Assembly (NCBI GenBank): GCA_001818235.1 | Contig: MHJY01000031.1 | Location: forward strand, 1-36,295 | DNA from: Candidatus Jacksonbacteria bacterium RIFOXYB2_FULL_44_15 | Lineage (GTDB): Bacteria > Patescibacteriota > Patescibacteriia > UBA9629 | DNA: 36,295 bases | Direction: 5' to 3' | Part shown: positions 3,047 to 27,994 of the stretch, one piece after another | Layout: each line of letters starts with the position of its first letter | Position numbering within the stretch: the stretch's first letter is position 1 | Made by a program: the position numbers and the translations under genes | The notes under the pieces: model-generated | Told to the model about the DNA's origin: nothing | Seen by the model: the letters and a program-made list of their open reading frames with translations, nothing else | The model's database searches: none

Positions 3047-4030
3047 ATGCTCAAAAATAAAACAATTCTAATTACCGGCGGGACAGGTTCTTTTGGGCAA
3101 TCCTTTGTGGAGCATGTTTTGAAAATGTCCGCGCCTAAGTCAATTCGCATTTACAGTCGCGACGAACTCAAACAATACGAAATGCGAAAAAAACTAAATT
3201 ATCATCCCCGGCTACGGTTTTTAATTGGCGATGTTCGCGACGGCGAGCGCTTGCGGCGTGCAGTTGAAGGTGTAGATATTTTAATTCACACCGCGGCCTT
3301 AAAGCAAGTTCCAGCTTGCGAATATAATCCAATAGAAGCCATCAAGACGAACATCAATGGAGCAATAAATGTAATCGAAGCCAGCCTTGACAATCGCGTC
3401 GAAAAAGTTATCGCCTTAAGCACCGACAAAGCCGTTAATCCGATTAATTTATACGGCGCCACTAAACTTTGTTCCGACAAGCTATTTATTCAAGCCAATG
3501 CTTATATAGGCAATCGACCGACGCGCTTTGCAGTAATTCGCTACGGCAACGTTTTGGCGAGTCGCGGTAGCGTAATACCGTTGTTTCGAGAACAACTCTT
3601 GGCAGGCAAAAAATTAACATTGACGAGCGAACAAATGACGCGCTTCTGGATTACTTTAGACCAGGCAGTGAAATTTGTAATTACTTCCCTTAAAATGATG
3701 CGCGGCGGCGAAATTTTTGTGCCTAAATTGCCGAGCATGAAAATTATCGACTTAATTAAGGCCATTGATTCAAAAGCGCAATTTAAAACCATCGGACTGA
3801 GAGCAGGCGAAAAATTAGATGAATATTTAATTTCAAACGAAGAAGGCAATCGTACCTATGAACTCAAGGATCGCTATATTATTGAACCAGAAGAAAATTT
3901 CGTTGATTCAGGGCAACTGTCGAATAAGCTCACCAAACGCCCCCCCGCCGAGTTTAATTACAATAGCCGCGACAACCAGTGGTGGTTAACTCAAGCCGAA
4001 ATGAGAAAAATTTTAAATCAGCTTAACTAG
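3047..4030 (+). CDS. pseB: UDP-GlcNAc 4,6-dehydratase (inverting), PseB type
   Basis: This soluble SDR enzyme removes water from UDP-GlcNAc and inverts C5, giving UDP-2-acetamido-2,6-dideoxy-L-arabino-hexos-4-ulose, the first step to pseudaminic acid. The Rossmann motif GGTGSFG is at residues 11-17, catalytic TDK at 126-128 and the Tyr/Lys pair in YGATK at 136-140. The 327-residue length and the RDELKQYEM and ALKQVPACEYNP segments are typical of PseB/FlaA1. Unlike the second 4,6-dehydratase at the end of the window it has no membrane domain and keeps the Tyr. The pseC-like gene follows after 9 nt, confirming the pathway. Confidence 0.94.
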   Translation: MLKNKTILITGGTGSFGQSFVEHVLKMSAPKSIRIYSRDELKQYEMRKKLNYHPRLRFLIGDVRDGERLRRAVEGVDILIHTAALKQVPACEYNPIEAIKTNINGAINVIEASLDNRVEKVIALSTDKAVNPINLYGATKLCSDKLFIQANAYIGNRPTRFAVIRYGNVLASRGSVIPLFREQLLAGKKLTLTSEQMTRFWITLDQAVKFVITSLKMMRGGEIFVPKLPSMKIIDLIKAIDSKAQFKTIGLRAGEKLDEYLISNEEGNRTYELKDRYIIEPEENFVDSGQLSNKLTKRPPAEFNYNSRDNQWWLTQAEMRKILNQLN

Positions 4031-4039
4031 ATTAACCTT

Positions 4040-5155
4040 ATGCCTTACATTCCTTATGGGAAACAGACTATTGATACTCAAGATATTAAGACTGTCGAAG
4101 CAACCCTAAAATCAGACTGGCTAACCCAGGGCCCAAAAATTCAGGCTTTTGAAAAAGCACTGGCAAACTATTGCAGGGCAAAGTACGCTGTTGCGGTCAG
4201 TTCAGGCACTGCGGCACTGCACCTAGCATACCTCGCGACTGGACTGGCACATGGCGATGAAGTTATTACGACACCGAACACTTTTGTGGCAACAACTAAT
4301 ATGGTGCTGGCTTGCGGAGCCAAACCAGTTTTTGCTGATATTAGACTTGATACCTATAACCTTGACGAAACTAAAATCGAGACCTTGATTACACCACGCA
4401 CCAAAATGATTGTGCCAGTTCATTTTGCTGGCCAGCCCGCCGAAATGTCGACAATTTTGCGCCTTGCCAAAAAACATCAATTATTAGTAATAGAAGACGC
4501 CTGCCACGCCCTGGGAGCTGAATATCAAAACAAAAAAATCGGTGCACTAGGCTCAGACATGACGATTTTTAGCTTTCATCCGGTTAAGCCGATTACCACC
4601 GGTGAAGGCGGAGCGATCGTTACGAATAATAGAAAATATTACGCCCAGCTTCTGTTGTTGCGCAGTCATGGCATCAAAAAAGACCGCCGTGGATTTAATG
4701 TTATGACCGCCCTTGGTTATAACTACCGTTTAACCGATATTCAAAGTTCGCTAGGCTTAAGCCAATTAAAAAAGTTGGACCGCTTCTTAACGAAAAGACG
4801 CCAAATAGTTGGTTGGTATCAGGCAGAACTTAAACAAATCTCAAATATTATTCTGCCGATTGAGGTTTCACCGGCAAAAAGTGGCTGGCATTTATACGTC
4901 ATCCGCGTCAAGAAGGCGAAACTACGCAATCAACTATTTACTTACCTCAAAAATCACGGCATTGGCGTTAACTTTCATTATCCGGCAGTCTATCGTCATC
5001 CATATTACCGACAAAGCGGCTATAAAAACGTGCATCTTATCAATGAAGAAACCTATCAAAGTTCATGTCTGACTTTGCCTTGTTATGTGCAATTAACCAA
5101 GGCCAATATTCAATATATCAGCAATTGTCTTAAACATTTTCTATTAAATCATTAA
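4040..5155 (+). CDS. pseC: UDP-4-keto-6-deoxy-AltNAc aminotransferase, PseC type
   Basis: This PLP-dependent DegT/DnrJ-family aminotransferase (371 residues) would install the 4-amino group on the PseB product, yielding UDP-4-amino-4,6-dideoxy-beta-L-AltNAc. The PLP lysine is K183 in FHPVKPITTGEGG, the same number as I recall for the H. pylori enzyme. The VSSGTAALHLAY phosphate-binding stretch and the IEDACHALGA motif are intact. The N-terminal start MPYIPYGKQTID is the usual PseC beginning. The gene sits directly between pseB and the WbqC/formyltransferase pair, so its amino sugar product is the likely acceptor for formylation. No Shine-Dalgarno site precedes the ATG. Confidence 0.92.
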   Translation: MPYIPYGKQTIDTQDIKTVEATLKSDWLTQGPKIQAFEKALANYCRAKYAVAVSSGTAALHLAYLATGLAHGDEVITTPNTFVATTNMVLACGAKPVFADIRLDTYNLDETKIETLITPRTKMIVPVHFAGQPAEMSTILRLAKKHQLLVIEDACHALGAEYQNKKIGALGSDMTIFSFHPVKPITTGEGGAIVTNNRKYYAQLLLLRSHGIKKDRRGFNVMTALGYNYRLTDIQSSLGLSQLKKLDRFLTKRRQIVGWYQAELKQISNIILPIEVSPAKSGWHLYVIRVKKAKLRNQLFTYLKNHGIGVNFHYPAVYRHPYYRQSGYKNVHLINEETYQSSCLTLPCYVQLTKANIQYISNCLKHFLLNH

Positions 5156-5156
5156 T

Positions 5157-5849
5157 ATGAGATGCGCCATCATGCAACCAAATTATTTACCATGGGCTGG
5201 CTATTTTAATCTAATCGATAATTGCGACGTATTTGTCTTTTTAGATCATGTTCAATATACAAAAAACGAATGGATTAATCGCAATCGAATCAAAATTCCC
5301 AAGGATTGGATATATTTAACAGTACCTATAAAAACAAGCGGCAAACTCTGCCAACCTATTATGGAAACAGAAATTGACAATAACGCCAATTGGCAAAAAA
5401 AACATTGGCGATCAATACAATTCAATTATGCCAAAGCGCCCTACTACGATGAGTTTAGCTCAGTTCTTCAAGAAATTTATCAAAAAAAATGGGTATATAT
5501 ATCAGATCTAAATATAACATCTACTAAAATAATAATGGATAATCTGGGTTTAAAAAAAGAAATATCATTTTCTTCTAAAATGAATGTTGCGGGACATAAA
5601 ACAGATTTGGTAATAAATATCTGCAAACAACTAAAAGCCACGGAGTACATCTCGCCTTTAGGCGCTAATGCGTATATTGAGGAAGATAAATTCAAACAAA
5701 ACAATATCAAGCTAATTTATCAAACCTATTTAAATCATCACCCAATTTATCCCCAGCTTTGGGGCAAATTCGTGTCCCATCTTTCTATAATAGATTTAAT
5801 CTTCAATTGCGGTAAAAACGCCCGGCAATTTATTAAATATGATCAATAA
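5157..5849 (+). CDS. WbqC-like family protein
   Basis: The 230-residue protein opens with MRCAIMQPNYLPWAGYFNLI and continues DVFVFLDHVQYTKNEWINRNRIK, which are the defining motifs of the WbqC-like family found in O-antigen and flagellin-glycosylation clusters. The biochemical activity of this family is not known to me; a role in acylating or modifying an amino sugar has been a common guess. It begins 2 nt after pseC stops and overlaps the following formyltransferase-like gene by 11 nt, so the two are probably translationally coupled and act on the same intermediate. The gene is conspicuously A/T-rich (one 60-base line at 5461 has 13 G/C) compared with pseC, hinting at a different origin. Confidence 0.85.
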   Translation: MRCAIMQPNYLPWAGYFNLIDNCDVFVFLDHVQYTKNEWINRNRIKIPKDWIYLTVPIKTSGKLCQPIMETEIDNNANWQKKHWRSIQFNYAKAPYYDEFSSVLQEIYQKKWVYISDLNITSTKIIMDNLGLKKEISFSSKMNVAGHKTDLVINICKQLKATEYISPLGANAYIEEDKFKQNNIKLIYQTYLNHHPIYPQLWGKFVSHLSIIDLIFNCGKNARQFIKYDQ

Positions 5850-8209: not shown

Positions 8210-8962
8210 ATGATTATCGGCGCAATTATTCAAGCCAGGACCAACTCAACTAGATTGCCAAATAAAGTACTTTTACCCTTACAGGAAAAAAGTGTTTTAG
8301 AACACGTGATTATCAGAGTTCGCCAAGCTCGAAAGATAAATAAAATTATTGTCGCCACCACTAAAAATAGTAGCGATGATAAAATTGTACAAATTTGCCA
8401 CAATATGCAGATCAACTATTTTCGGGGTAGTGAAAATGACGTTTTGGATAGATACTATCAGGCAGCCAAAAAATTTAATCTTAATGATATAGTGAGAATT
8501 ACCGGTGATTGCCCAGTGACAGATCCGACAATTATCGATCAAGTAATATATTTATATCAAAAAAAAAATTTAGCTTATGCCACCAATGTTATACCGCCGA
8601 CTTTTCCGGACGGGCTAGATGTGGAAATTTTCTCCAGGCAAGCACTGGACAAAGCCTGGCGCGAGGCAAAATTAAAATCCGCTAGAGAACATGTAACAGT
8701 TTACATGTGGCAAAACCCCCATCTATTTAAACAAAGCCATCTTAAAAATAAAGTGGATTTGTCTAAACGAAGATGGGTCCTAGATAATCCAGAAGACTAT
8801 GAATTTATGAAGCAAATTTTTACTCAACTGTACCAAAGCAAACCTAATTTTAGATTAAAGCATGTACTAAACTTTTTAACTGCTCATCCAAATATAGAAA
8901 AAATAAACCAAGGTATAAAAAGGAACGAGGGGTTGCTAAAATCCTTTCGAGAAGATAAATAA
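8210..8962 (+). CDS. SpsF-type cytidylyltransferase (CMP-nonulosonate synthetase candidate)
   Basis: The protein (250 residues) opens with IIGAIIQARTNSTRLPNK, the SpsF variant of the nucleotide-binding loop of CMP-sialate synthetases. It also contains SENDVLDRYYQAA and RITGDCPVTDP. SpsF proteins are encoded next to NeuB-like synthases in Bacillus spore coat and many flagellin glycosylation clusters and are taken to activate a nonulosonic acid with CTP. A NeuB-type gene lies 4.5 kb downstream at 13488. The usual spsG/pseG neighbour (UDP-sugar hydrolase) is absent in this window. A general nucleotidyltransferase acting on another sugar acid is the alternative. The APRT gene follows after 1 nt. 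Confidence 0.8.
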   Translation: MIIGAIIQARTNSTRLPNKVLLPLQEKSVLEHVIIRVRQARKINKIIVATTKNSSDDKIVQICHNMQINYFRGSENDVLDRYYQAAKKFNLNDIVRITGDCPVTDPTIIDQVIYLYQKKNLAYATNVIPPTFPDGLDVEIFSRQALDKAWREAKLKSAREHVTVYMWQNPHLFKQSHLKNKVDLSKRRWVLDNPEDYEFMKQIFTQLYQSKPNFRLKHVLNFLTAHPNIEKINQGIKRNEGLLKSFREDK

Positions 8963-8963
8963 T

Positions 8964-9491
8964 ATGGCCACAACAAATCTAAAAAAATTTGTTGCTGACA
9001 TCCCAAATTTTCCCAAACACGGAATACTTTTTAGAGATATTTCCCCTCTTTTAGCGAATGCCCGTATCTTTAGACAGCTTATCAATAAAATCTGCCGGCG
9101 GTATCAAAATAATCTGCCTGACAAAATAATCGGTTTAGATGCTCGTGGGTTCATTTTTGCCGCGGCTGTAGCCTACCAAATTAAAGCCGGCTTACTAATG
9201 GCACGCAAACCAAAGAAATTGCCGGGTAAAACTATTAAGCAAGCCTACGCTTTAGAATATGGTAAAAACTCATTTGAGTTACAAGCTAATTCTATCAAAC
9301 GGGGAGAAAAGATACTTATTATAGATGATCTTCTGGCTACCGGCGGATCAACCGAAGCCGTATGCAAACTCATAGAAAAAATGGCGGGCATCGTTATCGG
9401 GATAGAATTTATTATCGAATTAGCTTTTTTGAAAGGACGCAAACGTTTACAAAAATATCCTATTCATGCCCAAATAATTTATGAACAGTAA
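8964..9491 (+). CDS. apt: Adenine phosphoribosyltransferase
   Basis: This cytosolic enzyme joins adenine to PRPP, making AMP. At 175 residues it has the normal length and every hallmark of genuine APRT: IPNFPKHGILFRDISPLL near the start, the GLDARGFIF segment, the flexible-loop ARKPKKLPGKT and the PRPP-binding loop ILIIDDLLATGGST at 117-130. Nothing suggests a changed active site. Its location is the odd part, inside a nonulosonic acid gene block and overlapping by 11 nt a nucleosidase that releases adenine. The pair would convert SAM by-products (5'-deoxyadenosine, MTA, SAH) to AMP via adenine. It could instead simply be a displaced housekeeping gene. Confidence 0.94.
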   Translation: MATTNLKKFVADIPNFPKHGILFRDISPLLANARIFRQLINKICRRYQNNLPDKIIGLDARGFIFAAAVAYQIKAGLLMARKPKKLPGKTIKQAYALEYGKNSFELQANSIKRGEKILIIDDLLATGGSTEAVCKLIEKMAGIVIGIEFIIELAFLKGRKRLQKYPIHAQIIYEQ

Positions 9492-10116
9492 TCATTTGAG
9501 CAAAAAATTTGGCATTATCTGCGCCATGAAAGAAGAGACCGCAATGATAATTGAGACTCTAAAACTTCAAAAGAAGCCAAAGAATATTCTACCACTCTTT
9601 GAAAATCAAGATATAGTGCTAGTTGAATCAATGGTTGGCAAAGTGGCGGCTGGATTAGCTACGGCTTATTTATTAAAACATTTCGCGCCGAAGAAAATTA
9701 TCAACATTGGTCTAGCCGGCGCTCTTAATCCAGCCTTCGAACCGGGCGATACTTTTTTTGTTTCAGAAGTTTTTCAACACGACGCTTATATTCCCATTGT
9801 CAGTTATCAAAATGATTTTTACCAAAGAATCGCTGGAGAAATACCTGACGATCACGCTCGGCCGGCAGTTCGTTTAACCACAGGTGATCAATTTATTGAC
9901 AATCGTAAGAAACTCGCGGCATTAAAGGCCAAAGCGGACTTGGTAGATATGGAAGGCTTTGCAATAGCCTATGTAGCTAATAAATACGATAAAAAGGTAA
10001 TTTTTATCAAAGCAACTTCAGACAAAGCAAATCAATCTGCCGCTGATGAACTAATGATTAATGTACAAAGAGCCATGCAAAATTCAATTAATCTTTTATT
10101 AAAAATAATCAGTTGA
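9481..10116 (+). CDS. 5'-methylthioadenosine/S-adenosylhomocysteine nucleosidase-like protein
   Basis: The protein (211 residues) belongs to the MTAN branch of the PNP/UDP phosphorylase family, which hydrolyses MTA, SAH and also 5'-deoxyadenosine to adenine plus the sugar part. Visible catalytic features are GIICAMKEE with the Glu at 19 in the position of the E. coli acid, VGKVAAGLA, GLAGAL, TTGDQFI, VDMEGFAIA with Met157/Glu158, and the general acid Asp181 in TSDKANQ. These all look functional. It is somewhat shorter than E. coli MTAN (about 232). Its start lies inside the apt gene, implying coupled synthesis with the enzyme that uses its product adenine. A TGA stop separates it from the next gene, which happens to be in the same frame. 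Confidence 0.88.
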   Translation: MNSNHLSKKFGIICAMKEETAMIIETLKLQKKPKNILPLFENQDIVLVESMVGKVAAGLATAYLLKHFAPKKIINIGLAGALNPAFEPGDTFFVSEVFQHDAYIPIVSYQNDFYQRIAGEIPDDHARPAVRLTTGDQFIDNRKKLAALKAKADLVDMEGFAIAYVANKYDKKVIFIKATSDKANQSAADELMINVQRAMQNSINLLLKIIS

Positions 10117-10131
10117 TTTAATCATTCTTGT

Positions 10132-11424
10132 ATGCGTACTTATACACAATCAAAGCAACTTCTAAAATCGGCCAAAACTCTCTTTCCCAACGCTACCCAA
10201 ACTTTAAGTAAAGGTTATAAAATGTTTGTGGAAAAAGACTTTCCCTTATTTGTCTCCCGAGCGAAAGGATGTTATTTTTGGGACGTTGACGGTAACAAAT
10301 ACATTGATTACAACTGTGCTCTAGGTCCTATCATTATTGGCTACAATGTTCACGAAATTAACCAAAAAATCATCCTGCAATTAAAAAATGGAATTATCTT
10401 TTCATTGCCCCATAAAATAGAAGTGGAACTGGCTAAAAAAATAATCTCAATTGTCCCGGGCGCGGAAATGATAAGATTTGTCAAAAATGGCGCTGACGCG
10501 ACTTCTGGGGCCGTCAGAATAGCCAGAGCCTACACCGGAAAAGACATTATTTTAAGGGGCGGCTATCACGGCGCTCAAGATTGGTATTTAGCCAGTCAAC
10601 CGCCACAGGATCTAGGCGTTCCATGCATAATGAAAAAATTAATTGATACTTTTAAATATAATGATATAGAAAGCCTAGAAGCTATGATTAAAAAATATCG
10701 AAATAAAATAGCCGCCGTTATATTAGAGCCTGTTCCCATGGAATCTCCCCAAAATGGATATTTGCAAAAAGTCAGGGAAATCACTAAAAAAAATGACATC
10801 GTGCTGATTTTCGATGAGATCATTACGGGATTTCGAATGTCTTTAGGAGGAGCACAAGAATATTACAAAGTGACTCCTGATATAACCTGTCTGGGCAAAG
10901 CTATGGCCAACGGCATGCCTATCTCTTGCATAGCCGGTAAACGAAAAATTATGAAAAAAACTGAAGCGGTTTTTATCTCCACTACCTTTGGCGGGGAAAC
11001 ACTATCCATGGCGGCCGCTGTGGCTACTATTGATTATTTAAAAAAACACCATGTAATTAAGCATACATGGCAAATCGGTAAAATGCTTTACGATGGCATT
11101 AATAATTTGATTAAAAAATACAATATTCAAGCACATCTAATTGGACAAGAATTTAAATTTAAAATTATTTTCAATAACCCAGATAATTCCGAATCGAACA
11201 CAAAAAAACTATTCTTCCTGCAACAAGCAGCACAAAAAAGAATATTTTTCGGTACCGCCATAACTTTTAATTATAGCCACAAGGAAAAAGAAATACGCTA
11301 TACTTTAAAGGTAATAGAACAAATATTTGCAAAAATTAAAAATTGTCATGATGATGAAAAACAGATAAAAAAATTAATCAGAGGCAAAATTCCAATTAAC
11401 ACTTTCCAGCGCGATCAACGCTAA
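10132..11424 (+). CDS. Class-III PLP aminotransferase, glutamate-1-semialdehyde aminomutase-like
   Basis: The 430-residue protein has the fold-type I class-III layout: FPLFVSRAKGCYFWDVDGNKY near the N-terminus, VKNGADATSGAVRIARAYTG at 117-136, FDEIITGFR with the PLP-binding Asp228, and the PLP lysine K256 in CLGKAMANGMP. It resembles HemL, but no other haem genes are nearby, and such HemL-like proteins commonly sit in sugar clusters with SpsF and NeuB genes. It would therefore aminate (or move an amino group on) an aldehyde or keto intermediate of the unusual sugar acid; the substrate is unknown. The end of the protein (after about 395) is lysine-rich and less conserved. Confidence 0.85.
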   Translation: MRTYTQSKQLLKSAKTLFPNATQTLSKGYKMFVEKDFPLFVSRAKGCYFWDVDGNKYIDYNCALGPIIIGYNVHEINQKIILQLKNGIIFSLPHKIEVELAKKIISIVPGAEMIRFVKNGADATSGAVRIARAYTGKDIILRGGYHGAQDWYLASQPPQDLGVPCIMKKLIDTFKYNDIESLEAMIKKYRNKIAAVILEPVPMESPQNGYLQKVREITKKNDIVLIFDEIITGFRMSLGGAQEYYKVTPDITCLGKAMANGMPISCIAGKRKIMKKTEAVFISTTFGGETLSMAAAVATIDYLKKHHVIKHTWQIGKMLYDGINNLIKKYNIQAHLIGQEFKFKIIFNNPDNSESNTKKLFFLQQAAQKRIFFGTAITFNYSHKEKEIRYTLKVIEQIFAKIKNCHDDEKQIKKLIRGKIPINTFQRDQR

Positions 11425-11430
11425 CATTTT

Positions 11431-12336
11431 ATGAATACCCCACTTTATCGAAACAAAAAATATCAAATCAAATTAGATGAAAGGTACGGCTACTACCATC
11501 TTTTTCCTATACCAACTCCAACAGAATTAGAAACGTATTATAAAAAAAAATTTTATAGCAATCATTATTCCAAACAAATAAATGACAGCTCCCGCCAAGT
11601 GCAAGATGCAGATAGAAAATTTTTAGAGACGCAATACGGAGATATTGTGGAAACGATAAAAAAAGAATCGTTGGGAAACAAAATCATTGATATCGGTTGC
11701 GGTTACGGGAATTTTTTGAAATTTTGCATGAATCGAGGATTTACAGTTACCGGTCTAGATCCGGCCAAGGAAGCCGTCGCAGACATTCAAAAAAATGTCA
11801 GGAACGCCGGCATTAATGTTTATGTAGCTGATATTGAAAACATTCGGGCTACCATCAAACAAAAATATCACACCGCCATAATGTTAAATGTTTTAGAACA
11901 TCTACGCCAACCTTATAAAATCTTGCAGGATATTAAAAAACATATTCTCGTAAAGAATGGCCTGTTAATCGTTAAAGTGCCCAACGAATTCAACAAACTG
12001 CAGGTCATTGCTAATCAAATGTATGGCTTAAAAAAATGGTGGGTTTGCATTCCCCAGCACATAAATTATTTTACTGTCGAACATCTGGAAAAATTAATTA
12101 CCAAATGCGGATATAATGTTATTTTAAAAGAATCGACGTTTCCTTTGGAAATGTTTATACTGTTTGGCGATCAATATGTGGGACATCCAAAACTAGGTAA
12201 AAAAATCCACCAAAAAAGAATCAGGTTCGAAAAAATTTTAACAACATATGATAATGCTTATAAACGAAAAATTTTTCAAACCTTTGCTCAAATAGGCTTA
12301 GGTAGAGAGATTACAATATACGCCCGAAAAAAATAA
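11431..12336 (+). CDS. Class I SAM-dependent methyltransferase
   Basis: A 301-residue protein with the SAM-binding motif IIDIGCGYGNFLKFC at about 85-99, the acidic loop VTGLDPAKEA, and the post-motif MLNVLEHLRQPYKIL (Methyltransf_23-like). The first 80 residues are an extra N-terminal part without recognisable metal-binding cysteines. In this block it could O- or N-methylate the nonulosonic acid or its precursor; C-methylation is also possible. Its by-product SAH is a substrate of the nucleosidase encoded two genes upstream. A 77-nt gap with an inverted repeat follows, the second largest gene-free gap within this block. The acceptor cannot be deduced. Confidence 0.85.
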   Translation: MNTPLYRNKKYQIKLDERYGYYHLFPIPTPTELETYYKKKFYSNHYSKQINDSSRQVQDADRKFLETQYGDIVETIKKESLGNKIIDIGCGYGNFLKFCMNRGFTVTGLDPAKEAVADIQKNVRNAGINVYVADIENIRATIKQKYHTAIMLNVLEHLRQPYKILQDIKKHILVKNGLLIVKVPNEFNKLQVIANQMYGLKKWWVCIPQHINYFTVEHLEKLITKCGYNVILKESTFPLEMFILFGDQYVGHPKLGKKIHQKRIRFEKILTTYDNAYKRKIFQTFAQIGLGREITIYARKK

Positions 12337-13472: not shown

Positions 13473-13487
13473 ATCTTGCAAAAAAAT

Positions 13488-14543
13488 ATGTTAAAAGTAA
13501 AAATTGGAGAAAAAAATCTTGGCCAAAACTGCCCTGTTTACATAGTAGCCGAAGCAGGCAGTAATCATAATCAAAATTTTAATATGGCCATAAAATTAAT
13601 TGATGCGGCTGTTCAGGCTCAAGCTGATGCTGTAAAATTTCAATTATTTCGGGCAAAACAACTTTATCCCAGAAAAGCCAAAACAGCAACTTATCTAGCA
13701 AAAAAATATGAAAATATCTTTGATTTAATGAAATCAATGGAAATGCCTGTCGCTTGGATTGAGAAACTGGCTAAATACTGCCATCAAAAAAAAATCGACT
13801 TTTTATGCACACCATTCGATGAACAAACTGCGGATATACTACAAAACTTTGTTTTAGCTTATAAAATAGCCTCGAGCGAATGCAATCATACCGAATTAAT
13901 TGCGCATATTGCAAAAAAAAACACGCCAATTATTTTAGCAACCGGGTTAGCTCAATTAGGAGAAATTGATGAAAGTGTCAATTTAATTCGCGAATATCAT
14001 GATAAAATTATTTTAATGCATACTATAATTAATTATCCGGCTAGAATTGAGGACACCAATCTGCTGTATATCAAATATTTGAAAAACATATTTAACTGCC
14101 CGTGCGGACTATCTGATCACAGTCAAGATCCAATCATTTTACCTGTCGCCTCGACAGTTTTAGGTAGCAATATAATTGAAAAACACTTTACGCTTAATAA
14201 AAACCTGCCCGGGCCAGACCATCAGTTTGGCATTGATCCTGCAGAATTAAAAGCTTTAGTAAAAGCCATTAGACTAACAGAAGCCTCCTTGCTGTTTCGG
14301 CAAAATAAAATTTTAGAAATTGAAAAGGAATTTGTCAAAGTGTCTAAGCGAGCAATTCAATCCACGCGTAATATCCAAAAAGGCGATAAATTGACCAAAA
14401 AAAATATCGCGATACTACGACCGGGCAAGGGCGTTTCCAGTGGATTAGAGCCAAAATATTATAATTTATTGCTAAATAAAATAGTTAATCAAAATATAAA
14501 CAACGGAGATGGAGTAACCTGGAACCATTTATTAAATACGTGA
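13488..14543 (+). CDS. NeuB-family nonulosonic acid synthase (PseI/LegI/SpsE-like)
   Basis: This enzyme condenses phosphoenolpyruvate with a six-carbon amino sugar to give a nine-carbon sialic-acid-like sugar. The TIM-barrel NeuB domain covers about residues 10-265 (VYIVAEAGSNHNQNF, ADAVKFQLF, DFLCTPFDE, GLSDHSQDP, EKHFTLNKNLPGPDH). A C-terminal SAF/antifreeze-like domain covers about 285-350 (KRAIQSTRNIQKGDKLTKKNI). All usual PEP- and metal-binding segments are visible. I chose the ATG at 13488; a TTG 12 nt earlier is also in frame. The combination with PseB/PseC suggests PseI, but the SpsF-type activating enzyme and missing PseG leave the exact product open. Confidence 0.9.
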   Translation: MLKVKIGEKNLGQNCPVYIVAEAGSNHNQNFNMAIKLIDAAVQAQADAVKFQLFRAKQLYPRKAKTATYLAKKYENIFDLMKSMEMPVAWIEKLAKYCHQKKIDFLCTPFDEQTADILQNFVLAYKIASSECNHTELIAHIAKKNTPIILATGLAQLGEIDESVNLIREYHDKIILMHTIINYPARIEDTNLLYIKYLKNIFNCPCGLSDHSQDPIILPVASTVLGSNIIEKHFTLNKNLPGPDHQFGIDPAELKALVKAIRLTEASLLFRQNKILEIEKEFVKVSKRAIQSTRNIQKGDKLTKKNIAILRPGKGVSSGLEPKYYNLLLNKIVNQNINNGDGVTWNHLLNT

Positions 14544-15902: not shown

Positions 15903-17363
15903 ATGGGATATTCGAAGATGCTTAAAAAAATTCTTAGCTGGCAACTGCTGTCGCCGATTCTGACCACGGCAGGTTTGTTATTCAGACCTCTCCAAATAAT
16001 CTTAAAACAAGATATTTTGATTATGATTAATGAAGGCAATCGAGACACATTAGGTCTGTTTTTAGTTTATGCTCATCTTAAATATGGTTACAAGTTGAAA
16101 ATAAAAGTTCATTCGATGATGTTCTTACAACGCTTTTGGGTCTTGCTTTATCGACCAACTATTATAACAAGCATTAATATTGACTGCCCGGAAGGTATAA
16201 AAATATATGAATTTTTACACGACTTGGGTTGTTATCGATTGATGATACCAACAGAACACGCAATGTATAATACTATTCAATATCTAATCACTCAGTTCAA
16301 TATTCAGGGACTAATCGACAATATTTTGGTTGCCAATGAAAAAATGAAGGAGTTGTTTATAAACGAAAAAAAAAGTCCCGCCGATCAAATTCATGTGATT
16401 GGCTACCCTACTTTTGATTGGAGCGTACCGCCATTAAATACTTTTTTTGAACCACGAAAAACTTTTTTCCAAAAACATCGAGTGCCATTAGATCGTAAAG
16501 TGATTCTACTCGCGTCCTCTTTTTCTGTCGCTGATGCCATAGACGATAATAATAAAAAATATCAATTCGCACCAATTCCCGAGGCTGAGCTTATTAAATT
16601 AATTGAGACAACACAAAAACTCCGAAAATTAACAATTGATTGTTTTACTGAATTATTAACCAAACATCCAAATTGGCAATTATTTATTCGCAAACATCCT
16701 TTTGAAAAACCAGATCTTTACTTTCAAGCATGGGCAAATCATTGGCAAGTTTGCCAAGTTCACTACGAAGAAATTCATGACGTCTTGGCGAATTGCGACG
16801 TATTTGTTCACTGGCGATCGACCAGTTCATTACAAGCTTGGGGTTTTGGAAAACCAACAATTCTGATCAATTTTAATGAATGCCCGAATAGTTTACAGGA
16901 AAATGAACTAGAAAGCTTTCACTTAGGTAATTATCTGTGCCAACATTTAGCAGAGCTTGAGCCTATTTTAGCTACAATTCTAAACGGTCAACCGCTCCCG
17001 GCCACCCAGATTGAACATCGTAAACGTTGTCAGCAAAAATTTTTCCCCAACATGGACGGTCACGCAGCTGAAACAGCTGCTCAACTAATCCATAAATTGT
17101 TTCGACAAGAGCAGAGGAGAAAAATTAAATTCTCAACCAAACCGCTGGATACTCTGCATTTACTTCGCGGGTTTGGGCTCTGGTTTGTTTACAAAATAAA
17201 TTTTCAGCTGGCGCGACTGTTAAAATGCCAACCCAATAATTTTCGTTCCTCACTTATTAAAATAAGCTCGGCTTATGACGGTTTTGCTTTAGAATTCCAT
17301 CAACTGCGTTTAGAAAAAAAAATAAGTAAGCACCTTCGAAAAATTTATGATGCAACTAATTAA
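15903..17363 (+). CDS. Surface carbohydrate biosynthesis protein, GT-B-like transferase
   Basis: The 486-residue protein has a helical, partly hydrophobic N-terminus (LLSPILTTAGLLFRPLQIIL) and a central IHVIGYPTFDWS segment. The C-terminal half contains IRKHPFEKPDLYFQAW and VFVHWRSTSSLQAWGFGKPTILI, resembling the donor-binding half of CDP-glycerol/poly-sialyl-type GT-B enzymes. This fits the poorly characterised surface-carbohydrate-biosynthesis family seen beside NeuB genes, for which a nonulosonic acid transferase role has been suggested. If so, it could use the CMP-sugar made by the upstream block; that is inference. Alternative start at 15918 (MLKKILSW). It overlaps the next gene by 17 nt. 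Confidence 0.72.
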   Translation: MGYSKMLKKILSWQLLSPILTTAGLLFRPLQIILKQDILIMINEGNRDTLGLFLVYAHLKYGYKLKIKVHSMMFLQRFWVLLYRPTIITSINIDCPEGIKIYEFLHDLGCYRLMIPTEHAMYNTIQYLITQFNIQGLIDNILVANEKMKELFINEKKSPADQIHVIGYPTFDWSVPPLNTFFEPRKTFFQKHRVPLDRKVILLASSFSVADAIDDNNKKYQFAPIPEAELIKLIETTQKLRKLTIDCFTELLTKHPNWQLFIRKHPFEKPDLYFQAWANHWQVCQVHYEEIHDVLANCDVFVHWRSTSSLQAWGFGKPTILINFNECPNSLQENELESFHLGNYLCQHLAELEPILATILNGQPLPATQIEHRKRCQQKFFPNMDGHAAETAAQLIHKLFRQEQRRKIKFSTKPLDTLHLLRGFGLWFVYKINFQLARLLKCQPNNFRSSLIKISSAYDGFALEFHQLRLEKKISKHLRKIYDATN

Positions 17364-18042
17364 AAAACTGCTGAAACCGTTTTGGTTTGGGATAATTATC
17401 TACCATAAAGGCCTGCACGACCGCGAAAAAAAAATCGACTACCAACAACGTTTTTTTGATTTTAAAATCAAAGCGGGCGAGCAAGTTCTGGACATCGGCA
17501 GTGGTGGCGATCCTTTTGCATACGCCACGCATTTGGTTGATAAATACCCTCAAGACACCCATCACAGACATAACAAGTTAAAAACTCGCGACCTGCCGTT
17601 TACTCAAGCGGACGTGGAAAACCTCCCGTTTGCGGATAAATCATTTGATTTTGTTTACTCGGCGCACGTACTAGAGCACGTCGACAACCCAGGGCAGGCT
17701 TGCGATGAGATAATGCGTGTGGGCAAACGCGGTTACGTCGAAACACCGACGCGAACCTCTGATCTTTTATTCAATTTTATTAAAATACCAGACTTTCATC
17801 GTTGGCATATCTCGCTTGTAAATCAAACTTTAATTTTTCTAGAATACACGGCAGTGGAAAAGGTTGATACTAAACGAAATGAATTTTTATACATGGTTCA
17901 CTCTTGGATCAATAATCCCTTAAAAAAAATTTACGATCGTTCCAAAAATTTATTTAATAATATGTTTTTTTGGGAGGAGAATTTCTTTTATTATGTCTTC
18001 GACAAAAACGGCCACCTGGTCAGCACTAATAAAACCAGCTAA
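17347..18042 (+). CDS. Class I SAM-dependent methyltransferase
   Basis: The protein (231 residues) carries the SAM-binding motif VLDIGSGGDPFAYA at about 47-60 and the later motifs DVENLPFADKSFDFVYSAHVLEHVDNP typical of Methyltransf_11 proteins. The acceptor is unknown; with three other methyltransferases in the window, several positions of the glycan, or its capped end, are probably methylated. It overlaps the preceding gene by 17 nt and the following methyltransferase gene by 50 nt in a different frame. The C-terminal 60 residues (MVHSWINNPLKKIYDR onward) are beyond the core fold. Confidence 0.84.
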   Translation: MMQLIKKLLKPFWFGIIIYHKGLHDREKKIDYQQRFFDFKIKAGEQVLDIGSGGDPFAYATHLVDKYPQDTHHRHNKLKTRDLPFTQADVENLPFADKSFDFVYSAHVLEHVDNPGQACDEIMRVGKRGYVETPTRTSDLLFNFIKIPDFHRWHISLVNQTLIFLEYTAVEKVDTKRNEFLYMVHSWINNPLKKIYDRSKNLFNNMFFWEENFFYYVFDKNGHLVSTNKTS

Positions 18043-18688
18043 GATAAAACTAGCTAGATTAATTTTAGCATTGTTGCGGAGCGAAAAATCGTTTCGCCAA
18101 AAATACATTCGCCCGAAAAACATCACCCAAGCGACTAAAATTAATTTATGCTCCGGAGCAAAAAAACTAACCGGTTACTGCAACATTGACCTGGTGCCAA
18201 ACGCGGACTTAATAATTGATCTGGAAAAAAAGCTCTTGCCGTTTGCAGACGATTCCTGCGAAGTGGTTATTTGCATTTCAGCTATTAATTATTTTAGCCG
18301 TGATCGCGCCTTAGCCATAATTAAAGATGTTTTTCGCGTATTAAAACCAGGTGGCATTACTAGATTCGCCACTCAAGATTTACGTCTAATCGCGCAAAAA
18401 TATGTAGCTACTGACGAAACATTTTTTAACGCTAAGCTGCAAAGTGGTGCGGCGCGTTTCGCGGGCGAAACGTTCGGCGATAAAATGAACAGTTGGTTTT
18501 ACGGCTACGAAACAGCTGGCGGTAAACACTGCCGTTATGTCTATGACTTTGAATCGTTAAGCTTGTTATTTAAAAAAGCCGGTTTCAATATTATTGAGCA
18601 AAAAAAATACTGTGAAAGTCGCCTTCCGCAAATAGCGCTAATAGATAATCGGCCCGAGCAAATGTTTTTTTTAGAAGCCATTAAATAA
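17993..18688 (+). CDS. SAM-dependent methyltransferase-like protein
   Basis: The 231-residue protein contains INLCSGAKKLTGYCNIDLVPNADLIIDLEKK (about 50-80), the variant LNLGCGxxxxxGyvNvD of methyltransferases found in glycan clusters, and VFRVLKPGGITRFATQD. The usual EH after motif IV is replaced by INYFSRD. The first Gly of the SAM loop is replaced by Cys-Ser, still compatible with binding. The start overlaps the preceding gene by 50 nt; no shorter ATG fits before the motif. An AGGAG at 17975 lies 13 nt before the ATG, but it is coding sequence of the upstream gene and too distant to be a convincing ribosome site. Confidence 0.78.
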   Translation: MSSTKTATWSALIKPAKIKLARLILALLRSEKSFRQKYIRPKNITQATKINLCSGAKKLTGYCNIDLVPNADLIIDLEKKLLPFADDSCEVVICISAINYFSRDRALAIIKDVFRVLKPGGITRFATQDLRLIAQKYVATDETFFNAKLQSGAARFAGETFGDKMNSWFYGYETAGGKHCRYVYDFESLSLLFKKAGFNIIEQKKYCESRLPQIALIDNRPEQMFFLEAIK

Positions 18689-26384: not shown

Positions 26385-27351
26385 TTTTTGCACATTATTT
26401 ACGTCACAGTATTTATACCAAGGATTAGCCTTAATCCACTCGCTTAATCGCCATTGTCAAAAATTCCGGCTATGGATTTTGTGTATGGATGACTCTGTTT
26501 ACCGCATCTTGAATCAATTCAACCTTAAGGACGTGACTCTGATTTCTCTAAAAGACTTTGAAAGTCCCGCACTACTACAGGTTAAAAAAGAACGGACACC
26601 GACCGAATATTGCTGGACTTGTAAACCGCCGCTTTTTCTCTATATTCTTGAACGCTGGCCAGACATAGAAACATTAACCTATCTGGATGGAGATTTATAT
26701 TTTTTTTCGAACCCAGACCCGATTTATCATGCACTAGGCGATCGGTCTGTGCTGGTGACGCCGCATTATTATTCACCGGAATATCGCAAAAGTCAGGCCG
26801 GACTTTTTAATGCCGGATTTTTGCTCTTTAAAAACAATCTTGCCGCTCGAATAATCATAGAAGAATACACGAAACAATGTCTTGACTGGTGTTTTAATTA
26901 TTATCAAAAAGGTAAAATCGGTGATCAAGGCTATCTAGATGCTTGGCCAATAAAGTATGCTGATCATCTGTCAATTTCGAAGTATCGAGGAATCAATGTC
27001 GCGCCATGGAATGTAAACCAATATAAAATTACAATTACTCAGAAGCAACTTATAATTAATCGCGAGCCATTGGTTTTTTATCACTTTCACTCCTTGAAGG
27101 TATATTCTGCAGTTAAATTCCTCTTATCCACTTACCCGTTGACTCGCCAAGTTAAAAAAATAATTTACCAACCATATATTGAATCCATTAAACGGGCAGT
27201 AGTTCTAGTTCTAAAAATTGAGCCAACGTTTTCCCATGGATTCAGCCCGTGGCCAATATGGCGCAAACAATTAAAATGTTCGTTACTTAAATGTTTAAAA
27301 AAAATAAAAAGTTATTATTATGTCGCTAAAACTTCGGCACTGGCTAAATAA
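26374..27351 (+). CDS. GT-A-type glycosyltransferase
   Basis: The 325-residue protein has the fold of nucleotide-diphospho-sugar transferases: an N-terminal CTLFTSQYLYQGLALIHSL, the metal-binding DGD at 105-107 in YLDGDLYFF, then LFNAGFLLFKNN and GDQGYLDAWP, a GT8-like arrangement. The C-terminal region (residues 240-320) is basic and hydrophobic, probably for membrane association. It starts inside rfbH (11-nt overlap), so it may transfer the CDP-dideoxyhexose, although CDP-sugar donors for GT-A enzymes are not proven here. The end overlaps the next gene by 32 nt. Confidence 0.8.
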   Translation: MNHDFCTLFTSQYLYQGLALIHSLNRHCQKFRLWILCMDDSVYRILNQFNLKDVTLISLKDFESPALLQVKKERTPTEYCWTCKPPLFLYILERWPDIETLTYLDGDLYFFSNPDPIYHALGDRSVLVTPHYYSPEYRKSQAGLFNAGFLLFKNNLAARIIIEEYTKQCLDWCFNYYQKGKIGDQGYLDAWPIKYADHLSISKYRGINVAPWNVNQYKITITQKQLIINREPLVFYHFHSLKVYSAVKFLLSTYPLTRQVKKIIYQPYIESIKRAVVLVLKIEPTFSHGFSPWPIWRKQLKCSLLKCLKKIKSYYYVAKTSALAK

Positions 27352-27994
27352 ATTTGCCTTGCTAGTCAAAAATAAAATCTTGATTAATCAAAATTTGCTG
27401 GGCGACCGTGACATTGAATGGTCGTTTGTTGCTGGCCACTTACCCAAAAACTCCGGCCATGCGTTAGATTTAGGTTGTCGGCAAACTTATTTAGGTCTAA
27501 TGGCCGCGCAAGCCGGTTATCAAACAATTGCCTTGGATTTAGAGCCTGTTGCCTGGCCATATCAGCATCCGAATTTGGAATTTATTCAAGGCGATATTTT
27601 AACAACTGAGTTTCCGAATGACTATTTTGACCTGATCATAAATTCGTCTTCAGTTGAGCATATTGGCCTTGCCGGCCGATACCAGATTAACGAAAATATT
27701 CCTGCCGGAGATTTAAGAGCTATGCAACGAATGTTGTCTTTCCTGAAACCGGGCGGAACAATGCTACTGACTATCCCTGTCGGCCAAGACGCTATCTGCC
27801 GACCTCTTCATCGAATTTATGGGGCAAAACGTCTACCTAGTTTAATCGCTGGATATGTTATCCGCAATAAAGAATTTTGGATTAAAGGCGAAAAACAAGA
27901 ATGGATTCAAGCGTCGGAAAACGATGCCCTGCATAAACTCTGCCCTAAAGGCGCCTATAATTTAGGCTGTTTTGTTTTGCAAAAGCCTTGCTAA
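27320..27994 (+). CDS. SAM-dependent methyltransferase, DUF268-like
   Basis: A 224-residue protein with the SAM-binding motif ALDLGCRQTYLGLMAA at about 48-63, IALDLEP and INSSSVEHIGLAGRY. The region GDLRAMQRMLSFLKPGGTMLLTIPVGQDA followed by LHRIYGAKRLPSLI resembles the DUF268 group of sugar-cluster methyltransferases. Acceptor unknown. It overlaps the glycosyltransferase upstream by 32 nt in another frame, and is followed after 10 nt by the polymerase/ligase gene. It could methylate the dideoxyhexose or the terminal residue recognised by Wzt. Confidence 0.8.
   Translation: MSLKLRHWLNKFALLVKNKILINQNLLGDRDIEWSFVAGHLPKNSGHALDLGCRQTYLGLMAAQAGYQTIALDLEPVAWPYQHPNLEFIQGDILTTEFPNDYFDLIINSSSVEHIGLAGRYQINENIPAGDLRAMQRMLSFLKPGGTMLLTIPVGQDAICRPLHRIYGAKRLPSLIAGYVIRNKEFWIKGEKQEWIQASENDALHKLCPKGAYNLGCFVLQKPC

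Follow-up and report, generated by a model that had tools for sequence, protein, structure and literature searches.

The window analysed here is the entire 36,295-nt contig MHJY01000031.1, part of the 1.25-Mb, 92% complete genome of Candidatus Jacksonbacteria bacterium RIFOXYB2_FULL_44_15. Two co-directional genes, which we call apt and mtn, lie within it among genes predicted to act in glycan biosynthesis (Table 1). A preliminary description had reported both genes as intact and overlapping by 11 nt, with a radical SAM protein and four methyltransferases encoded in the same cluster. The ORF coordinates and the conserved active-site residues agree with this, both reading frames being uninterrupted, and we find a radical SAM/SPASM gene and four methyltransferase-like genes in the cluster. 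The overlap suggests that apt and mtn are translationally coupled. No terminator-like site was found on the + strand between the SpsF-like gene and the class-III aminotransferase gene, and the pair may be co-transcribed with the glycan cluster.

Table 1. Features of the window discussed in the text
Feature	Position	Strand	Basis or remark
PseB-like Polysacc_synt_2 dehydratase	3047..4030	+	Pfam
PseC-type aminotransferase	4040..5155	+	TIGR03588 over cut-off
SpsF-like cytidylyltransferase	8210..8962	+	1 nt before apt
apt: adenine phosphoribosyltransferase, 175 aa	8964..9491	+	curated models, PDB matches, tree
apt–mtn overlap	9481..9491	+	11 nt
mtn: short-form MTA/SAH/5'-deoxyadenosine nucleosidase-like, 211 aa	9481..10116	+	Pfam, PDB, residues, model, tree
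GSA-aminomutase-like class-III aminotransferase	10132..11424	+	15 nt after mtn
SAM-dependent methyltransferase	11431..12336	+	
Radical SAM/SPASM protein, 352 aa	12414..13472	+	possible 5'-deoxyadenosine source
NeuB-type nonulosonic acid synthase with SAF domain	13476..14543	+	
Methyltransferase	17347..18042	+	
Methyltransferase-like protein	17993..18688	+	
DUF268/Methyltransf_11 protein	27320..27994	+	

The GC content and GC3 of apt and mtn agree with those of the neighbouring genes, and the inner cluster is GC-poor relative both to its flanks and to sampled stretches of the genome. We note that between positions 5157 and 17360 GC3 is mostly 0.29–0.41, below that of most flanking genes, and that this is perhaps a separately acquired block. 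The best matches of the class-III aminotransferase come from Giovannonibacteria and Taylorbacteria, which, like the genome size and gene content, suggests an organism of Patescibacteria type. A search of bacterial contigs seeded with this protein gave two close GSAM-NeuB clusters, both of them without apt-mtn.

Predicted products of apt and mtn

The apt product exceeds the cut-offs of two curated NCBIfam models (NF002636, 212 bits against 125; TIGR01090, 198 against 186) and has the PRT fold (PF00156, 56.5 bits). Its PRPP-binding motif, LIIDDLLATGGST, is intact and is shared with phage and PDB homologues, and solved APRTs align along its full length in a PDB sequence search. The curated models thus identify it as a predicted APRT, which, going by its family, would convert adenine and PRPP to AMP.

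The mtn product has the PNP_UDP_1 fold (PF01048, 99.6 bits, cut-off 25.1) and comes nearest to the MTAN models while scoring below their cut-offs (PRK05584, 116 against 169; TIGR01704, 73.3 against 73.8), which is why we name it MTAN-like and regard it as a short, divergent form. It does not reach the cut-off for futalosine hydrolase (TIGR03664, 50.8 against 124.7), and the MTA phosphorylase model TIGR01694 is absent from the families matched. Its PDB sequence matches are MTAN-type nucleosidases, some of them named aminodeoxyfutalosine nucleosidase, and the Foldseek matches listed for its structure model, which is of modest confidence (pLDDT 71), are likewise MTANs or MTAN-type nucleosidases. 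The catalytic set is retained, with E19, M157, E158, S180 and D181 corresponding to E. coli E12, M173, E174, S196 and D197; D156 occupies the position of E. coli E172, and the protein is shortened by about 20 aa after QHDAYIP. Hydrolysis of MTA, SAH or 5'-deoxyadenosine would be expected from the family, with a substrate preference that may differ given the scores below the MTAN cut-offs and the aspartate in place of E172.

Relatives in phages

The nearest relatives of MTN came from viral contigs, in a scan of IMG/VR seeded with an MTAN alignment. The window apt is 54 and 52% identical to the apts of two phage loci, L157 and L158, against at most 51% for the genomes of the phylum, and the corresponding values for mtn are 44 and 41% against about 35%. 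L157, a longer stretch, carries portal, baseplate-hub and SbcC-like genes, and we therefore regard it as a T4-like phage. Trees place the window apt with four phage apts (support 99/94); in the mtn tree, five phage sequences join that of the window (97/94), and the phage-type character of the pair is well supported by both genes. In the apt tree, the apt of a genome from the wider phylum sample (G425) also belongs to the larger group around them, most of whose members are phage sequences (99/93). An AU test did not reject a single phage clade without the window sequence (p 0.20), so the cassette, which probably passed between phage and host lineage, may have been transferred in either direction. 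For apt-mtn, the search of bacterial genomes beyond the phylum was less sensitive than that of viral contigs, and the grouping with phages could reflect unseen bacterial relatives.

The arrangement of the two genes is frequent in uncultivated phages. We retrieved 80 viral MTAN loci, and in 57 of them the retrieved stretch also contains apt, nearly always directly adjacent to mtn. L146 and L147 have apt followed by mtn, as in the window, with an overlap of 8 nt. The T4-like phage pairs (L157, L158, L238 and L240) share the genes, the order and the short MTAN form with the window; in L157, L158 and L240 the overlap is about 8 nt rather than 11, and the phage pairs adjoin a baseplate-hub gene, whereas the window pair sits in a glycan cluster. 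The complete phage C48C1 (Kyanoviridae; L265) has an apt-mtn pair with an 11-nt overlap, which follows the genes for ribonucleotide reductase, precedes NAD synthetase and is annotated as hypothetical. Since both proteins match curated families and phages repeatedly show this gene order and a comparable overlap, we consider the pair to be more than a chance juxtaposition. No PHROGs family was found for either of the two phage-type MTNs scanned, and the literature searched held no description of a phage apt-mtn pair. Radical SAM genes lie near general phage pairs at 8 of 36 loci compared with 6 of 59 controls, an enrichment that is suggestive only, as the detector was partly seeded from the same loci. 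When viral contigs were scanned with the radical SAM and SpsF proteins of the window, only distant matches or none came up, and the phage link is thus limited to apt-mtn among the genes tested. As a separate observation, a contig labelled Acinetobacter phage MD-2021a (L266, CAKLQH020000009.1) carries 5S rRNA, ileS, lspA and argA and looks like bacterial chromosome.

In one viral lineage the genes are part of a sugar operon. Thirteen viral loci of the L249 type (L252–L264, the contig of L249 itself among them) have mtn in a conserved operon with genes for a B12-binding radical SAM protein, sometimes a methyltransferase, E1/transketolase-like TPP proteins, a DegT aminotransferase, an RmlC-type epimerase, apt and a PfkB kinase. 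Once one duplicate is set aside, 12 loci are left, of which 9 carry apt and 10 a radical SAM gene; as these operons belong to one lineage, we count them as one event. No NeuB or SpsF homologue was found in these loci. They resemble the window in that apt-mtn is surrounded by genes of sugar biosynthesis and in most cases accompanied by a radical SAM gene, and differ in that their MTN belongs to another, shorter subfamily (about 185 aa, compared with 211 aa in the window).

Pairs and fusions in bacteria

A scan of bacterial contigs with MTN alone gave no relatives. The 381 genomes of the host's class contain 50 other apt genes; for 39 of these a PNP-family gene is found no more than 1.8 kb away, and in 38 cases the two genes share a strand. 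The PNP partners typed by HMM are all MTAP except in one genome (G074, L084), where the partner is an MTAN convergent with apt; this apt (family f55) forms a clade with two f55 apts that adjoin PNP-family genes of MTAP-like length. Four fusions could be typed, as apt-MTAP (L073 and L103), MTAP-apt (L104) and apt-NUDIX-MTAP (L081), and a 617-aa frame in G326 and an MTAP-apt frame in G605, from another class, look similar. The NUDIX domain lies between APRT and MTA phosphorylase in G304 and apparently in G326 too. We found no description of apt-MTAP fusions in the literature searched. These pairs and fusions (L072–L107) likewise have an adenine-releasing enzyme adjoining or fused to APRT; in them, however, this enzyme is a phosphorylase and the genes are outside NeuB/SpsF clusters, whereas the window pair has a nucleosidase-like enzyme and lies inside a glycan cluster. 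In the wider phylum sample, the G425 apt (L108) overlaps an MTAN-like gene by 4 nt.

When the window glycan proteins were used in tblastn searches, no homologue of NeuB, SpsF or the GSA-type aminotransferase was found beside the fetched bacterial pairs. NeuB and a PNP gene are no more than 7 kb apart in two other genomes, where about 0.6 such cases would be expected by chance (P 0.12). On these grounds, and because the nearest GSAM-NeuB clusters lack the pair, we reject for the sampled phylum the idea that bacteria conserve an apt-mtn module specific to the glycan. In one same-family and two same-order genomes, apt, PNP and NeuB are all absent. A side observation concerns G174 (L116:2802-8450), in which a PF01048 gene ends about 60 nt before the PglD-like gene of a nonulosonic acid cluster that also holds CTP_transf_3, NeuB and PIG-L, with apt about 12 kb away.

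Sole copies and SAM by-products in the genome

The preliminary description had counted it against its own reading if these were the sole, housekeeping copies, and apt and mtn are indeed the only such genes in the 92% complete genome: mtn is its single PF01048 gene, and of its five PRT genes the four besides apt read as PyrE, ComF, NUDIX-PRT and a generic PRT. A further copy of either gene could be missing from the assembly. Ten radical SAM genes are present, nine of them outside the window cluster and the typed ones including MiaB, Elp3 and an RlmN-like enzyme, along with one SAM synthetase gene and the SAH hydrolase AhcY. With nine other radical SAM genes and no second copy, the pair cannot serve the glycan enzymes alone; it most likely answers a cell-wide need for removal of 5'-deoxyadenosine and/or MTA.

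With AhcY present, SAH is provided for and would not require the pair, which weakens the idea that SAH clearance for the four methyltransferases is the main need. No MtnA-family enzyme was found in the genome (92% complete), so the sugar half of the nucleosidase reaction would be a dead end, and an extension into methionine salvage or a DHAP shunt was rejected for this reason.

Discussion

We favor the explanation that apt-mtn is a two-step, cell-wide salvage cassette like those found in T4-like phages, and give this explanation as a whole a probability of about 0.7. The nucleosidase would hydrolyse adenosine-type by-products of SAM, most likely 5'-deoxyadenosine and/or MTA, to adenine and 5-deoxy- or methylthio-ribose, and APRT would then couple the adenine to PRPP to give AMP. 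By-product clearance is the likely chemistry of the pair, judging by the families of its two proteins. As the sole such pair in the genome, the cassette would serve the whole cell, the radical SAM enzyme of the glycan cluster included; co-transcription with that cluster may increase the supply while this enzyme is made. The cassette itself was probably exchanged between phage and host lineage. We also entertain, tentatively and at less than even odds, a more far-reaching idea, namely that apt-mtn is a mobile radical SAM clean-up cassette, exchanged between T4-like phages and bacteria and inserted time and again into radical-SAM sugar operons, where it would remove 5'-deoxyadenosine and recover AMP locally.

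Alternatively, the position of the pair could be incidental: an ordinary salvage pair would have been inserted into a glycan island of horizontal origin, or carried along with it, and would be functionally unrelated to it. The relatives of the same family and order that have neither apt, PNP nor NeuB, the GC-poor inner cluster and the mostly unrelated contexts of related pairs elsewhere are consistent with this. What argues against it is that the genes overlap and are placed co-directionally within an operon, and that apt-mtn turns up again in viral sugar operons with radical SAM genes; we consider it somewhat unlikely.

The preliminary description had proposed that the pair is a built-in clearance and salvage module for the glycan enzymes. 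Such a dedicated module would relieve inhibition of the cluster's radical SAM enzyme by 5'-deoxyadenosine, which is known to inhibit radical SAM enzymes (PMC8102628). The 1-nt and 15-nt gaps to the adjoining glycan genes, the radical SAM/SPASM gene downstream, the uninterrupted stretch without a terminator-like site, the GC3 shared with the neighbours and the 12 non-redundant viral sugar operons all fit this proposal. Against it stand the sole copies and the nine other radical SAM genes, the bacterial pairs outside NeuB/SpsF clusters, the nearest GSAM-NeuB clusters without the pair, the NeuB–PNP proximities in two other genomes against about 0.6 expected, and the single event that the viral operons represent. 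What stands of the proposal is the pairing, which is real, recurrent, sometimes fused and present in a viral sugar operon; dedication to the glycan, which is partly contradicted by the sole-copy status and on which AhcY also bears, does not hold up as well, and we regard it as possible but unlikely. The co-occurrence with radical SAM, NeuB and SpsF genes that this proposal would predict was seen, for radical SAM and sugar genes, in one viral lineage but not in the fetched bacterial pairs. A phage-type salvage cassette in a glycan operon is the better-supported finding over a glycan-dedicated role.

Two further explanations carry very little weight. PNP-family enzymes can feed unusual sugars, and recruitment of the nucleosidase or transferase to make a glycan component, either sugar or nucleotide, suggested earlier as an alternative, would agree with the location of the genes; both proteins keep their normal active-site residues, however, and the pair and its fusions are found repeatedly where glycan genes are absent, which makes this highly improbable. 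A prophage remnant inserted in the cluster would account for two phage-type genes but is just as improbable, since Pfam scans of 36 window ORFs recognised no phage gene for structure or replication, and GC and GC3 agree with the neighbours.

The same two reactions in series as we propose here have been described in Francisella, where MtnN/Pfs with Apt provides adenine salvage from MTA (PMC13192272); the genes carry distant locus tags in that organism (FTT_0397 and FTT_0078) and the part of the source consulted does not mention a radical SAM glycan link, whereas the window genes overlap. In pelagimyophages, host-recognition clusters combine LPS genes with radical SAM cassettes (PMC7029224), so that glycan and radical SAM genes occur together as they do around the window pair, although the words phosphoribosyltransferase and nucleosidase are absent from the text of that paper. 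We point out that an "adenine phosphoribosyltransferase (Pta)" beside acetate kinase (PMC7785012) is probably a naming slip, as Pta is phosphate acetyltransferase.

Organisms with few salvage pathways still need to dispose of 5'-deoxyadenosine, and the means by which they do so are poorly known. A compact release-and-recapture unit of two genes, and sometimes one, that is frequent in uncultivated phages would offer a concrete genetic handle on this process. The handling of SAM waste would then be something that phages carry for themselves, one viral lineage having a sugar-operon version, and the phage-type pair in the window suggests that phages and bacteria exchange a small set of clean-up genes.
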